Below, piece after piece: positions 7,026-43,247 of a stretch of DNA of 64,000 bases (positions within the stretch are counted from its first letter, which is position 1; every line of letters begins with the position of its first letter). Source of the stretch: Dissulfuribacter thermophilus. GTDB taxonomy: Bacteria; Desulfobacterota; Dissulfuribacteria; Dissulfuribacterales; Dissulfuribacteraceae. The stretch spans positions 248,001 to 312,000 of the forward strand of contig NZ_MAGO01000001.1 of assembly GCF_001687335.1 (NCBI RefSeq), read 5' to 3'. The notes beneath the pieces were generated by a model that worked only from the letters and a program-made list of their open reading frames with translations, was not told where the DNA came from and ran no database searches. A program made the translations under genes and the position numbers.

Positions 7026-8249
7026 ATGAAGAAGCAAAATCTGTTTCTTTCAGTCTTAATCTTTTGTGTTTTTCTGATCTCCGGATGCGGATCAAAGGTC
7101 ATAGAGACAGTATCTCCCTTAACACCTCCTGTTTCTTCAGATACAAGTGGGATTAGTATAGCGATCCTTCCTTTAGCAGATTATACCAATGGCTATTCCA
7201 TAGATGATGCTGCTAGAAGGCAGATAAAGCTCGAAACCGCTATCAGCTATGAACTCACACGATTGGGGATCTATCCTGCTCTACAAGAAGATGTAATCCA
7301 GTGCCTTTCTGATATTGGAGTAATAAAAATAATAGAGACGCCAGAGGTAGGATCATCCCAGAGATTTATTCAACGTGAGCTGTCTTCTGGCTGGTCCGAT
7401 GAAATGCGTATGGAAGTGCAGAAGATCCTTGCATCTAATAGAGGGAGTTCTCGCTGGAACACAATAAAAACTAAAAAAATTGGTCTTGATCCAGGTACTC
7501 TCATGGCAATTGGCCAAAGGCTTGGGGTGGATTATGTCCTCAGAGGGCGGATTGTAGAATACGAGATTAGAGATGACCGTAACCTCAATCCATTGCAAAG
7601 GGGAATTCTCCCCTTCTTTTTTGATCTGAGTTCAGCAACTGTGTTTGGAGTTGCAAGATCAGACACTTATGATCTGTGGCATGATGTTAGTGTGGGAGGC
7701 CTTTTGGGGGCGGTATTTGGATCGTCAGCCAATCATCCCTTTAATGCTCCATCCAAAAAGACTAGTATTCTGAATGATGGGCATCCAAGGCTTGGAGACT
7801 CTGTAGTAAGTGAAAGCGGTGGATTCGATGGTTCCCATGGACTTAACGCCGCATTTTGGGGGGCTGCCGGAGCAGGCGCTGCCTATCTTGCCTACAATGG
7901 AGGGAAGGTGCCGGAAGCAGTGGTCCAGGTGACCTTGGCCCTTCAGGATGTCCATACAGGAAAAGTGCTGTGGGCCAACAGGGTAGAAAAAATGGTCCAG
8001 CCCAAAAGTGTCTGGTCAGATACTAGTGTTAGAACACAGGTTGATCTAGCTGTTGAAGAGGCAGCCAAGAGTCTTGTCCAGGGTCTCGCGAAGGTTTTAG
8101 AAAGTCTTACAAGAGAAGCTTCTAAAGAACACTTCACTTACTCTTTCAAGAAAACACCCAGTTTTGAAGAGGAGCTAAAGGTTATACCAAAGGTTCCAGA
8201 GACATTAGAGGAAAAAACAGGAGAGCTTCCTGAAGAATGGGGGTCATAA
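7026..8249 (+). CDS. Lipoprotein with a CsgG-like N-terminal region
   Basis: The N-terminus is a lipoprotein signal: a hydrophobic stretch ends in LISGC, with Cys21 as the lipidation site. Residues about 42-95 (ILPLADYT, a helix with YELTRLGI) and LGVDYVLRGRIVEYEI near 165-180 resemble the CsgG/TolB-N type fold used by curli-pore and related outer-membrane lipoproteins. A glycine- and alanine-rich segment near 280 may be a hydrophobic insertion. The assignment is by pattern only and function is unknown. AGGAGGC... is not seen, but GGAGGCC precedes the ATG. It overlaps the next gene by 13 bases, so the two are likely made together at the cell envelope. Confidence 0.7.
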   Translation: MKKQNLFLSVLIFCVFLISGCGSKVIETVSPLTPPVSSDTSGISIAILPLADYTNGYSIDDAARRQIKLETAISYELTRLGIYPALQEDVIQCLSDIGVIKIIETPEVGSSQRFIQRELSSGWSDEMRMEVQKILASNRGSSRWNTIKTKKIGLDPGTLMAIGQRLGVDYVLRGRIVEYEIRDDRNLNPLQRGILPFFFDLSSATVFGVARSDTYDLWHDVSVGGLLGAVFGSSANHPFNAPSKKTSILNDGHPRLGDSVVSESGGFDGSHGLNAAFWGAAGAGAAYLAYNGGKVPEAVVQVTLALQDVHTGKVLWANRVEKMVQPKSVWSDTSVRTQVDLAVEEAAKSLVQGLAKVLESLTREASKEHFTYSFKKTPSFEEELKVIPKVPETLEEKTGELPEEWGS

Positions 8250-9982
8250 GAGAAATGAGGAATGCGGGCATTTCTAAATTAAGTTTCGTTATTCTTACCC
8301 TTATAACATCTTTGTTTATCCCATTCTTAAAGGCCTATGGTGTGACTTGCAGCACAGAAAATGGCCTTCTTTTTGTGTCCCCTAGTGAGATCGTTTTTTA
8401 CATAAGTATTGAAGATTCCAAGGATCCTACCCCCGTTACCCTGAATATTGATGGCCAGTTATTTTCAGGAAATGGAACCACTACGACTTTATGTTGGACT
8501 GCTGTTTCGAGTACAGATTGGATCGAATTCCAAGGCCTCGACAGTCGAATCGTGAGTGGCCAGGGACAGGGAGGCAGTCTTCAGGTAACAGTGGATATTT
8601 CCAAATTGCCTTTTGACCAGATGGCTTATTTAGGGGGAACCTCTACTAGCTATGAAGGAAATATAACCATTTCCAGTAACCTCGTAAAAACCGAAGCCTT
8701 GGGTGGAACAGGGATTATTGAAGAAAGGACTATCCCTGTAAAGGTGTATGTGAATAGTCTCAGAATTGTAAAGGAAGAAAACCTTTCAACCTCTCAATCG
8801 CTTTCACTACCAATATATATTCCGGTTTCAAAAAATATTCGTGGAGCCCTTTATGTATTACTGGAACATACAAGACTTCTGCCTGATCAGGTGCTTGCAT
8901 ATCGTGTTGATTCAAATAATGAGGCAAGGTATGACCTCTTTAGTGATAGGGGGCATCTCACAGATGAGGCCGGAGATCTATTTTTTGCCCCAGACATTCA
9001 AAATGTCCCAGTGATGGTACCTTATAGTTTAGATGACACATTTCCCCCCATGCCATATCAATCTTTTAATTTGCCATCAGCCGATGCCAATTCCTCTTTG
9101 AGCAATGTTAAAGGCTATATCCCCGTAAATATTGGTGAAGGATTAAAACTTAAGGGGCTAGAGGGTGACTTGATTGTGCGCGCTCTAGTAGGAGATCCAA
9201 AGAATATTAAAAATTGGAGACTCTGGAAAGAGCTCCTTTATGAAGTGGTCCATATTTCGCCAATAACAGGTACTTGGGTTGTCACCGAAGAATTTAATGG
9301 AAAGAACTACTCGTACATAAAAGAAGACGGGACAGCGTATCCTTTGGTCCTTACAGAGGGCAATGGATCGTTGGAAGGCAGGTGGCTCATGCCAGATACG
9401 ACCATCCATCTTAGTGTGCAATATCTGGATAGGCCTCAAGGTGGTTATGAGATATATTTTCAAGAACCAAGCAATTTATTTGGTCTAGTAGAATACCTTT
9501 ATACAATCGAAACTATTGAAGGGTCCGGATACATTGAAGGCACCTGGCAGTATAGGATAGTAGGAGACTCTAACTGGTCAATACCACAAAAATTTTCAGC
9601 AATTCGTCAAGAGGTAGTGATACCCCTCAATAAAGATTGCAATTGTTATTTAGTAGATGGCAAGGTGAATGGCTATCCCATACAGTTCATAGTGGATACT
9701 GGAGCATCTACGGTATTGTTAAGTTCAGCCGATGCCCAAAATATGGGAGTGGATTTGAGTGATACCAGTCGGTGTGTGCCTGGTTCAGTTACTGGTGTTG
9801 GAGGTCAGGTAAGTGCCGTGTTTTGTATGGTGGATATAGAGCTGGGAGGATGGCTACTGAAGCGCAATGTGTGGGCTGGTTTTTCTGATACCTGGTCTGG
9901 CCCTGGGCTTTTGGGGATGACTTTTTTGGATACTATTCATGTTTCAAAAGGTTCTGATGGAACTCTAATTTTAGCCCCATGA
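8237..9982 (+). CDS. Secreted protein with BACON-like N-terminus and retropepsin-like aspartyl protease domain
   Basis: A signal peptide occupies about residues 1-36. Residues about 37-175 resemble an Ig/BACON-type beta domain (CWTAVSSTDWIEF, a Gly-rich turn, then NITISS). The middle is beta-rich and unassigned. The C-terminal ~110 residues form a clan AA aspartyl protease domain: VDTGAST with Asp487, then GVGGQ and LLGMTFLD. One DTG motif is expected, since this family works as a dimer. It should be exported; substrate unknown. An alternative start lies at the second Met, 18 bases downstream. It is translationally coupled to the lipoprotein gene. Confidence 0.75.
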   Translation: MGVIREMRNAGISKLSFVILTLITSLFIPFLKAYGVTCSTENGLLFVSPSEIVFYISIEDSKDPTPVTLNIDGQLFSGNGTTTTLCWTAVSSTDWIEFQGLDSRIVSGQGQGGSLQVTVDISKLPFDQMAYLGGTSTSYEGNITISSNLVKTEALGGTGIIEERTIPVKVYVNSLRIVKEENLSTSQSLSLPIYIPVSKNIRGALYVLLEHTRLLPDQVLAYRVDSNNEARYDLFSDRGHLTDEAGDLFFAPDIQNVPVMVPYSLDDTFPPMPYQSFNLPSADANSSLSNVKGYIPVNIGEGLKLKGLEGDLIVRALVGDPKNIKNWRLWKELLYEVVHISPITGTWVVTEEFNGKNYSYIKEDGTAYPLVLTEGNGSLEGRWLMPDTTIHLSVQYLDRPQGGYEIYFQEPSNLFGLVEYLYTIETIEGSGYIEGTWQYRIVGDSNWSIPQKFSAIRQEVVIPLNKDCNCYLVDGKVNGYPIQFIVDTGASTVLLSSADAQNMGVDLSDTSRCVPGSVTGVGGQVSAVFCMVDIELGGWLLKRNVWAGFSDTWSGPGLLGMTFLDTIHVSKGSDGTLILAP

Positions 9983-10020
9983 TGCATCCCACAAGCAGAG
10001 TGTGCGTAATTTGTTAGTTT

Positions 10021-10089
10021 GACAAAAATTGTCAGCATTTGATCAAAAAATGTCATCTTAGGGCTCAATTTGTCAAAAAAAACGTTGTC
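10021..10089 (+). promoter_or_regulatory. Array of TGTC motifs, likely enhancer for the pilin promoter
   Basis: Direct TGTC motifs begin at 10030, 10051, 10071 and 10086, with an inverted copy (GACA) at 10021-10024. The first three are about two helical turns apart. They lie some 50-110 bases upstream of the sigma-54 -24 element, where an activator such as PilR binds in Pseudomonas and Geobacter. The PilR match is an inference from known half-site sequence. Confidence 0.55.
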
Positions 10090-10137
10090 CATGTGGGTAT
10101 TGAATGGGAATGGTCTCGAAATTAATCGTGTTTGATT

Positions 10138-10154
10138 TGGCATAACTGTTGCTT
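10138..10154 (+). promoter_or_regulatory. Sigma-54 promoter of the pilin gene
   Basis: TGGCATAACTGTTGCTT matches the -24/-12 consensus, with GG at 10139-10140 and GC at 10151-10152 separated by exactly 10 bases. It is about 125 bases upstream of the pilin ATG and points the same way. Sigma-54 control of the major pilin gene is well known in several Gram-negative groups. Confidence 0.8.
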
Positions 10155-10277
10155 TCTATCTAGTAACGTGAATAAAATGAAAGGAGGAATATATTTGGTA
10201 AAAGGTAAACGACACTTTCTTTGGCGGTCGTCACTAAATCATTTAATGACAAATAATAAATTATAGGAGGTGTAATT

Positions 10278-10710
10278 ATGATGATGGAAAAGTTTTTACC
10301 CAAGGCACACAGATCAAGATTCTCAGAAGGGTTTTACCCTTGTGGAATTGATGATAGTCATTGCAATTATTGGAATTTTGGCGGCTATCGCACTGCCGCA
10401 GTATAATTCTTACAGAAAAAGGGCTAAGGCAAAAAATTTGATCGATATTGCTAGGGCTTGCGCAATGGAACAGGCATCTTACTGTCAGGGTGATAGCAGT
10501 GCAGACAATGCGACTCTTATGGGATTACAGTCATGTTCCACTTCCTATAATCTCCCCTCAGGAGAGGCTGTTACACTTAAAGCCAAAACTGGTGGGACAG
10601 CTTGTAATGGTTTAGGTGTAAACGCAACAGCGACAATAAGTGGAACAACCTATTCTGCATACTGTTCAGGAACTTATAATGAGTCCGTGACTTGTAGTCT
10701 TACCCCATAA
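10278..10710 (+). pseudogene. Type IV prepilin, reading frame broken near the leader
   Basis: The downstream frame encodes [19 protein letters not shown], the type III prepilin cleavage site and hydrophobic N-terminal helix, then a 124-residue mature pilin with several cysteines near the C-terminus. That frame has no ATG. The only good start, at 10278 behind AGGAGG, lies in another frame ([12 protein letters not shown]). One extra base separates them: removing one T from the run at 10293-10297, or one from 10332-10335, joins them and gives a normal leader. GTG 10342 sits inside the cleavage motif and is not a credible start. Either a real mutation or a sequencing error; the promoter and terminator are intact. 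Confidence 0.75.
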
Positions 10711-10750: not shown

Positions 10751-10797
10751 AGCAGGTGAGACACCTGAAAAGGCCCTGATCTCACCTGCTAATTTTT
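10751..10797 (+). terminator. Rho-independent terminator of the pilin gene
   Basis: AGCAGGTGAGA (10751-10761) and TCTCACCTGCT (10780-10790) form a perfect 11-bp stem, followed by AATTTTTT. It lies 40 bases past the pilin stop codon. Confidence 0.88.
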
Positions 10798-10893
10798 TGA
10801 TAAAATAATTGCAGTCCTCGGTCAAAAGTATAATTTTTAGCGAATTTCTGAGCAATTTAGATAGTTGAAAGCTCAATAGGTAGTAATGGCCAA

Positions 10894-17460: not shown

Positions 17461-18628
17461 ATGAAAAATATCGTCATATATACGCTGGGGCTTTTTTTAT
17501 CTTTAGGTTTGATCTCTTGTTCACAAAAAGAGGAGGCCAAAAGGGTGCCTCTTGCCCCTAAAAAGGTCAAGGCAGACACAATCTTATTAGAAGATGTGGC
17601 GCTTCCTGTTTATTCAAGTTTTTCTGGGGTTGTGGAGCCCAAGGTCAGGGTGAATCTATCTGCCAAGATTCCAGCCTATGTCAAGGTGGTTGGTGTAGAG
17701 GAAGGAGATTTTGTAGAAAAAGGGGATCTTCTTGTAAGGCTAGATGATACCGAGATACGCTCCAAGATTAATGGGCTTGTTGAGCAAAAGAAGGCGCTTC
17801 AAAAGGATAAGGCCGCACTTGAATCCGATTATTCCTATGCCAAGGCACTACGATCGTTTTAAACGGTTATTCAATGAAGAGGCTGCCACAAAAGATGAAT
17901 TTGATAGGGCAAAGGCAGATTATCTTGCTGTAAAAAACAGGTTGAGTGCCTTTGATGCACGTATAAAGGCAGTCGATGAGGAGATTAAGGCCCTGAATAA
18001 TGAACTTCGCTACCTTGTAATAAAAAGTCCTGTTTCAGGTTGGGTGACGAAGAGAACCGTAGATCCAGGAAGTTTTGTAGGTCCAGGTGCCCACCTTTTT
18101 GATATTGATTCCAAGGAAGAAGGATTTTGGTTTGTTGCCTCACTTAATGAGTCGCTTCTAAACAAAGTTCGCGAAGGAGATGAGGTTTTTTTAAGCATTG
18201 AACAGGCTGCTGGGCTTAAAGTCTTAAGGATTAGCCGTGTGATACCAAAGGTAGACGTCCATACCCATACCTTTAAGGTCAAATTAGATTTACCAGGCAA
18301 TAATTTAAAGAGCGGCATGTATGGCAAGATTTGGATAAGAACAGGAGAGAAAAAGGGGCTGATTGTGCCACTTGAGGCAGTTGTCAAAAGAGGCGGTATA
18401 AAAGGCGTTTATGTAGTAGACAAAGATGGGCAAATACATTGGCGTGTCGTTACTGTAGGGGAACTGTATCTAAGAGGGTCAAAAGGGCTATTCCCATGGT
18501 CAGAGGAGCTTGAGCCCAGTGGAAACCAATTTGAACAGGTGGCGTTGATCTCCAGTGGCATAGTCCCTGGTGCAAAGATCATCGTTTCAAATCTCTTTGA
18601 AGTAAGGGAGGGAATGAGCCTTGAATAG
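17461..18628 (+). pseudogene. RND efflux periplasmic adaptor, frameshifted
   Basis: Membrane-fusion protein linking the RND pump and TolC. The first fragment (to 17862) has a lipoprotein signal with LISC and the first lipoyl half (SGVVEPKVRVNLSAKIPAYV, VEEGDFVEKGDLLVRLDD). The second frame continues with YDRFKRLFNEEAATKDEFD, the coiled-coil return strand, the second lipoyl half (IKSPVSGWVTKRTVDPGSFV) and beta-barrel domain. Frames meet at about 17838-17850, where one net extra base breaks an otherwise complete protein of ~388 residues. Either inactive or a sequence error. It overlaps the pump gene by 8 bases. Confidence 0.85.
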
Positions 18629-41391: not shown

Positions 41392-43002
41392 TTACACTTC
41401 TTTTCGGATGGGCTTGAATGCGCTAGGATCAATGCCGTATTTTTGAACCTTATAATTTATGATCCTAAGAGTTGTGCCCAATATTTTTGCGGCCTTAGAC
41501 TGATTTCCCTTGGCTTCTCTTAAGGCATCCAAAATTAATTCCTTTTCAAAGTCTTCTACCCGTTTTTTAAGTGATGTATTTTTTTTATCCCTCTGTTGTT
41601 CAGATGACAAGGTCATTATTGTAGGGGGCAGGTGATGAGACCTTATAGTGTCTTCATCACAGATCAATACTGCACGTTCAATACAGTTTTCAAGTTCCCT
41701 AATATTCCCTGGCCAGTGATATTGGATGAGGAGATCAATGGCAGAAGTAGAGATCCTCTTTATCTTTTTGTTGTTCTCGGAGGCAAATTTTTCCAAGAAA
41801 TGCTCTGCAAGTAGTAGTATATCTGTTTTTCTTTCACGAAGTGGAGGAATGTAAATAGGAAATACATTAAGTCTATAATATAGATCTTCTCTGAACTGGC
41901 CCTGTTCAAGTGCACGTTCAAGGTCCTTGTTCGTAGCAGCAATTATCCTCACGTCGCATTTTATGGATTTTTGTCCTCCTACTCGTTGAAATTCCCTGTC
42001 CTGAATGACATTTAGGAGTTTCACCTGCACTGAATGCGGGAGTTCACCAATTTCATCCAAGAATATGGTCCCCTTGTGGGCCTGTTCAAAACGTCCTTTT
42101 TTGGTCTGAATGGCCCCGGTAAATGCCCCTCTTTCATGGCCGAATAGCTCTGATTCTACCAATGATTCAGGTAGTGCAGAGCAATTCACTGTAACAAAAG
42201 GTCCCTTGGCCCTTGGGCTGTTGTAGTGGATGGCCTTTGCAATCATGCTTTTGCCTGTGCCGCTTTCCCCACGCAACAGCACAGTGGCATTACTTTGAGA
42301 TACCCTGTGGGCCATTTCAAAGACCTCTTGCATTCTGGTGCTTTTGCCTATGAGTTTTCCGAAACTGTAGCGTTCCTTTAGGGCTATTTTTAATTGTCTG
42401 TTTTCCTCTAGTAGGTTTTCACGTTCGTAATTTGCCTCTTGAAGCTTTTTGACACTTTGCGCAATAAGCCCACTAATGATTGTCAGGAGTCTCAGGTCCT
42501 CTTCAAGCCCCTTTTCTCCGGAAAATTTTCTGTCGACGCTGAGGGCACCAATCACCACATCCCCTGCCTTTATTGGGACGCAGATAAAGGAAAGTTCATC
42601 TTTGTCTCGTTCTTTTCTGCTCCTTGTCTTATTGAGAAACCTTGGGTCCTCACTGATTCTAGGCACTATTATGGGCTCGCCTGTAGCCACAACTGTGCCT
42701 GTTATACCCTCACCAAGTTTGTATCGCCCCCGCTGTTTTGCTTTATGAGTAAGCCCTTTTGCCGCTTCAATCTGAAGTTCCTGGGTCTTTGGGTTAAAAA
42801 TGGTGATAGTACCCCGTTCCATGCCTGCTCTGTGTGCGAGGATGTCTAGGATATCCCTAAGGGCCTTTTTTATGTCTAATGTGCTGGATAGGGCCCTGGT
42901 AACCTCATACAGGCATGTAAGTTCACGTATGGCCTTTTCTGGGTCCTTTATTGGGTCCTGGCTAAAGATGTCTTGTTTATAATTTATTGTTTCTGCTAGC
43001 AT
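41392..43002 (-). CDS. Sigma-54 dependent transcriptional activator, NifA-like (GAF-AAA-Fis)
   Basis: A GAF sensor domain (about residues 30-180 from the start used) is followed by the AAA+ ATPase with Walker A GESGTGKS, the sigma-54 contact loop GAFTGA, Walker B TIFLDEIGEL, and the arginine finger region. The C-terminal Fis-type helix-turn-helix reads NQSKAAKILGTT. The start used begins MLAETINYK; an in-frame ATG 114 bases upstream is possible, and neither has a clear ribosome site. The GAF ligand is unknown. A regulator of this class is needed by the pilin promoter but this one need not be it. Confidence 0.9.
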   Translation of the reverse strand: MLAETINYKQDIFSQDPIKDPEKAIRELTCLYEVTRALSSTLDIKKALRDILDILAHRAGMERGTITIFNPKTQELQIEAAKGLTHKAKQRGRYKLGEGITGTVVATGEPIIVPRISEDPRFLNKTRSRKERDKDELSFICVPIKAGDVVIGALSVDRKFSGEKGLEEDLRLLTIISGLIAQSVKKLQEANYERENLLEENRQLKIALKERYSFGKLIGKSTRMQEVFEMAHRVSQSNATVLLRGESGTGKSMIAKAIHYNSPRAKGPFVTVNCSALPESLVESELFGHERGAFTGAIQTKKGRFEQAHKGTIFLDEIGELPHSVQVKLLNVIQDREFQRVGGQKSIKCDVRIIAATNKDLERALEQGQFREDLYYRLNVFPIYIPPLRERKTDILLLAEHFLEKFASENNKKIKRISTSAIDLLIQYHWPGNIRELENCIERAVLICDEDTIRSHHLPPTIMTLSSEQQRDKKNTSLKKRVEDFEKELILDALREAKGNQSKAAKILGTTLRIINYKVQKYGIDPSAFKPIRKEV

Positions 43003-43050
43003 AGAAGTAGATTTTGCAATATTTTTACAAAAATGTAAAGGACAGTTGTG

Positions 43051-43079
43051 TTGACATTCTAGTTGGGTATCCCCATAAT
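43051..43079 (+). promoter_or_regulatory. Strong sigma-70-like promoter in the spacer before fbp
   Basis: TTGACA (43051-43056) and CATAAT (43074-43079) with a 17-base spacer. The predicted transcript would start near 43086, leaving about 284 bases before the fbp ATG. Confidence 0.6.
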
Positions 43080-43085
43080 AGAAGA

Positions 43086-43247
43086 TTGAAGTTTGACTTA
43101 AGGTTAAATATGACATCTTTAAGAGGGGAATACCTCGATGACAAATCAGATTTTAGAATAAAAAAACAAAGATCTGTAACTTCTTTCAGGATGGGGTAGA
43201 GGCAATTAGGTTAAAGAAGCTCGTCTGTAATTGCTTACAACTTTTTA
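43086..43247 (+). ncRNA. Candidate small RNA or long leader upstream of fbp
   Basis: Between the promoter above and fbp, AGGCAATTA (43200-43208) pairs with TAATTGCTT (43228-43236) in a 9-bp stem with one G-T pair, and ACAACTTTTT follows. This could terminate a short RNA or attenuate fbp transcription. No open frame with a ribosome site is seen inside. The whole call is a reading of sequence, with no known family matched. Confidence 0.35.

Follow-up and report, generated by a model that had tools for sequence, protein, structure and literature searches.

A probable PilS/PilR-type sigma-54 promoter in front of the major pilin gene of Dissulfuribacter thermophilus

What kind of switch turns on the major pilin gene of Dissulfuribacter thermophilus is the question raised by a short intergenic region (9983-10277) in the 64-kb stretch of DNA analysed here, which as a whole we call the window. 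On its upstream side lies the gene of a 581-residue aspartyl-protease-domain protein (8237-9982), and between this gene and the pilin the region holds both a sigma-54-like promoter element and an array of TGTC motifs. The sequence-only reading of this locus had proposed a sigma-54 promoter with a PilR-like array 5' of a type IV pilin, and this proposal is supported by the rarity of the promoter consensus, its conservation in the order, and a genome that encodes rpoN together with a PilS/PilR pair. We therefore regard the locus, with good confidence, as a PilS/PilR-type sigma-54 promoter of the major pilin gene, that is, an ordinary pilin switch of a known kind, with which many bacteria control the main protein of their type IV pili.

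The promoter element fits TGGCAYR-N4-TTGCW, with GG at 10139-10140 and GC at 10151-10152 separated by a spacer of exactly 10 bases, so the GG-N10-GC pattern claimed earlier is indeed exact, and the match extends to the full 16-base consensus. In the whole genome (27 contigs, 2,524,199 bases), this strict consensus TGGCAYRNNNNTTGCW occurs six times, compared with none for a reversed-pattern control, and when one mismatch is allowed, the count rises to 142 sites vs. 19 in the control. The sigma factor itself, rpoN, is encoded at C11:87048-87524 (E 1.5e-62).

Upstream of this element, TGTC occurs on the forward strand at 10030, 10051, 10071, and 10086 (spacings of 21, 20, and 15 bases), with GACA at 10021. 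The four motifs are thus present at enhancer distance with the 15-21-base spacing described before, and this is the only place in the window, counting both strands, where four TGTC fall within 60 bases; when the intergenic region was shuffled 5000 times with its dinucleotides kept, an equally tight cluster appeared 14 times. Two of the motifs need correction: the first TGTC belongs to a palindrome, of which it forms the right half, and the fourth is doubtful. To judge from the sequence, the real unit is the inverted repeat TGACA-N5-TGTCA together with half-sites 20-21 bases apart: the palindrome is complete at site 1, sites 2 and 3 have its right half and follow at 21 and 20 bases, and the fourth motif, being off phase and without the final A, may not be part of the array (Table 1).

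Table 1. Coordinates of the features discussed, numbered from the first base of the window.
Feature	Position	Strand	Basis or remark
Site 1 of the upstream activator array, putatively for a PilR dimer; TGACA-AAAAT-TGTCA (TGACAAAAATTGTCA), a perfect palindrome	10020..10034	.	Unique in the 2.52-Mb genome
Upstream half-site 2, TGTCA behind an A tract, 21 bases past site 1	10051..10055	+	Sequence; W4-TGTC enrichment in order promoters
Upstream half-site 3, TGTCA, 20 bases past half-site 2	10071..10075	+	Sequence; 20 is the commonest direct spacing
Fourth TGTC (TGTCC), 15 bases on, out of phase, doubtful	10086..10089	+	Conserved half-site has a final A, missing here
Sigma-54 -24/-12 promoter element TGGCATAACTGTTGCT	10138..10153	+	Full match to TGGCAYRNNNNTTGCW; relatives have strong sites in this position
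Pilin mRNA 5' leader (predicted), about 115 bases	10163..10277	+	Start inferred from the -12 element spacing
Shine-Dalgarno-like element GAAAGGAGGAA	10179..10189	+	In the leader, about 97 bases 5' of the pilin ATG
Shine-Dalgarno TAGGAGGT of the pilin	10264..10271	+	Sequence
Type IV major pilin gene (pilA-like)	10278..10710	+	Pfam N_methyl 1.6e-9; start codons at 10278, frame of the mature pilin (QKGFTLVEL) from 10324
Terminator-like hairpin AGCAGGTGAGA / TCTCACCTGCT, then TTTTTT	10751..10798	+	Sequence; loop longer than the limit of the hairpin scan
GAF-domain sigma-54 activator	41392-43116		

When the pilA promoters of relatives were compared, as the sequence-only reading had suggested, the same layout was found 5' of the major pilin in most of the order. 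Where enough upstream sequence is available, most of these major pilins are preceded by a strong sigma-54 site; among the exceptions, no good sigma-54 site was found upstream of the major pilin in G004 (L030) and L044. The nearest relative, G005 (L197), keeps the same protease gene upstream, followed by three array copies, a sigma-54 site, and then pilA. For the enrichment counts, 19 pilin promoters of the order were left after near-identical ones had been removed, and these contain 49 TGTC/GACA motifs vs. 15.1 in shuffles (z 10) and 28 W4-TGTC half-sites vs. 2.6 (z about 16), with both enrichments little changed when the window itself is dropped. The positions of TGTC/GACA in the order promoters peak 75-120 bases 5' of the promoter. 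Within the same genome, other sigma-54-like sites, found with one mismatch allowed and many of which may not be promoters, carry a mean of 0.62 TGTC/GACA compared with 5 here, and a search of the genome for further targets built in this way gave nine pattern matches, three of them being the array itself.

The spacing within the array is shared more widely. Among 66 pilin promoters, taken from several phyla, the GACA-to-TGTC offset of 9 (TGACA-N5-TGTCA) occurs in 15, compared with a shuffle mean of 0.10 and a maximum of 1; the next commonest GACA/TGTC offset is -11, and the commonest direct TGTC spacing is 20 (9 cases vs. 0.23 expected). An offset of -11 together with a direct spacing of 20 would fit tandem palindromes, one per 20 bases. 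The motif TGACAWWWWWTGTCA occurs in this genome only once, namely here, and once each in 14 of the 46 order genomes, vs. three control matches, with a link to pilins in five of those 14. At the level of the phylum, the palindrome followed after 75-105 bases by TGGC-N8-TGC was found in 39 of 395 genomes, the control giving no match; 15 of the 30 sites fetched precede a pilin, and about half have other genes downstream, several of these encoding PAS sensor proteins. In other Thermodesulfobacteriota (L223-L230), the TGACA-N5-TGTCA and sigma-54 layout stands 5' of PAS sensor or response regulator genes. Therefore, not every lineage reserves the palindrome for pilins, and it may be a site common to related activators.

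The gene behind this promoter presents a difficulty of its own, namely a one-base shift between the ATG ATG ATG at 10278 and the QKGFTLVEL frame, the latter having no in-frame start codon, while the pilin leader is unbroken in the relatives L197 (G005) and L031. The promoter could thus be as described but conserved as the remnant of a decaying gene, silenced by a real one-base frame shift; the missing start codon and the intact leader of relatives speak for such a decay, and so does the position of the break, which the relatives place after MEKFLPKA, outside the A/T runs and not in a long homopolymer, so that homopolymer error is doubtful as its simple cause. Against decay, the mature part reads without a break for 128 residues and is 55-65% identical to full-length relatives, the nearest pilins belonging to genomes of the same order and to Deltaproteobacteria MAGs. 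The 454 method is known for small insertions and deletions. The genome of D. thermophilus S69 comes from 454 GS FLX reads (PMC5276818), and 7 kb away the same assembly has a second frame break, which splits a membrane fusion (HlyD-type) gene across two frames (17461-18628). Given these 454 data and the second break, an assembly error is the more likely cause and a real change the less likely one, and we consider the decay of the pilin gene unlikely on the whole. As a separate observation on pilin starts, an open frame upstream of the pilin leader in L041 and L043 would permit a longer pilin form, such as has been reported for Geobacter.

Taking the promoter as that of a working pilin gene, which activator would drive it? 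The genome encodes about 20 sigma-54 activators, one of them in the window, and in other lineages the palindrome also stands 5' of genes that do not encode pilins. The pilin promoter might thus be a true sigma-54 promoter and yet answer to another activator, e.g., the GAF protein of the window or one of two response regulators, L008 and L010. A candidate for the PilS/PilR pair looked for in the genome is, however, present about 50 kb before the window: the candidate PilR lies at C1:195174-196577, and the overlapping kinase that follows is a PilS with the Pfam domain 6TM_PilS (E 5.6e-13). Since pilR is 62 kb from pilA, their link has no support from gene neighbourhood, and an NCBIfam search to name PilR gave no PilR model among the matches listed. 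We compared six activators encoded near pilA in other bacteria, which we take to be PilR from this position and from what is known of such clusters, and five of the six score highest against the candidate PilR. This candidate also groups with pilA-linked activators of Gammaproteobacteria at moderate support (94/90), shares with the pilA-linked activators the recognition helix RxLRYR/K, and has close relatives in 43 of the 46 order genomes.

The GAF protein, which had been put forward as a possible driver of the pilin, turns out to be a poor candidate: it has a recognition helix (TLRIINYKV) that does not resemble that of PilR, its place in the tree is beside another GAF activator (99/99) and apart from the pilA-linked PilR, and the NifA-type site TGT-N10-ACA is absent from 9983-10180. 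NtrC-type sites sought in the pilin promoter region were not found either. We thus judge control by another activator improbable, and the PilR/PilS pair is, from these sequence comparisons, the best candidate. As for mere chance, an AT-rich intergenic stretch could happen to hold such motifs, bare GG-N10-GC occurring 376 times in the window and TGTC 414 times on its two strands, but conservation in relatives already refutes this explanation, and with the rare strict consensus, the unique palindrome, the shuffle tests, the enrichment in the order, the offset-9 excess, and the phylum matches with an empty control, it retains next to no probability.

For the PilS/PilR-type promoter, we infer the following sequence of events. 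Sigma-54 RNA polymerase would bind at 10138-10153, where it could not open the DNA alone. The membrane kinase PilS would phosphorylate the response regulator PilR, whose dimers would then occupy TGACA-N5-TGTCA (10020-10034) and the half-sites 20-21 bases apart, all on the same helix face and about 75-145 bases 5' of the transcript start. From there, the PilR oligomer would loop to the polymerase and open the promoter by means of its AAA+ domain, and the predicted product is a monocistronic pilin mRNA ending at the hairpin near 10751-10798.

The only point of this system that may be new concerns the pilin leaders of the order, which contain a Shine-Dalgarno-like element. Of 22 order leaders, 18 match AAGGAGGTGA at 8 or more of its 10 positions, eight of them at every position, while none of the 39 leaders from outside the order, which are mostly shorter, reaches 8 of 10. 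In several individual leaders, including that of the window with its 7 of 10, the match is no better than in shuffles. The element was noted in the leaders L031, L035-L038, L045, and L049, and among the leaders sampled it is confined to the order. In most cases, about 80-120 bases separate it from the start codon; the outliers are at 33-35 (with an upstream ATG counted as the start) and 147-187. In the window, a TTG frame of 23 codons could follow GAAAGGAGGAA; among the order leaders, a search for a conserved leader peptide behind the element gave no consistent start or frame. Neither did the leader show a conserved fold, its stability being no better than that of shuffles (z 0.85), or match any Rfam family at the gathering score. 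By analogy with known mRNA stabilisers, we tentatively suggest, as a possibility well short of an even chance, that this untranslated Shine-Dalgarno element parks a ribosomal subunit in the order's pilin leaders and thereby stabilises or primes the mRNA.

If the promoter is as we propose, PilS/PilR-sigma-54 control of the major pilin would extend to an order of Thermodesulfobacteriota whose members disproportionate sulfur, and the activator site, so far seen as scattered TGTC repeats, would become the sharper motif of a palindrome phased at 20 bases, usable for target prediction. The leader element, if functional, would bear on how pilin comes to be made in such large quantities. Here the known counterpart is STAB-SD, a 5' element that stabilises the cry3A mRNA of Bacillus thuringiensis (PMC4113751). 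Both are Shine-Dalgarno-like elements close to the 5' end and some 100 bases ahead of the start codon, and STAB-SD is not used for translation, as may also be true here; however, STAB-SD was described in Gram-positive mRNAs, the window has its possible 23-codon TTG frame, and we offer the resemblance as a lead.

For the promoter itself, the closest parallels are two known pilA systems. A consensus for TGTC-type PilR repeats was reportedly published by Jin and colleagues in 1994. In Pseudomonas aeruginosa, pilA is under PilS/PilR-RpoN control (Jin et al. 1994, cited in PMC6058289, which mentions GTCT elements), and the locus described here resembles it in its sigma-54 promoter, upstream TGTC-type repeats, major pilin gene, and PilS/PilR pair, whereas it differs in having the TGACA-N5-TGTCA palindrome with 20-base phasing and a longer leader (about 115 bases). 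In Geobacter sulfurreducens, where the RpoN-dependent start of pilA was mapped by 5'-RACE (PMC2725144), pilR lies directly upstream of pilA instead of 62 kb away, but the control of pilA by PilR and RpoN is the same pathway as the one that we propose for D. thermophilus.
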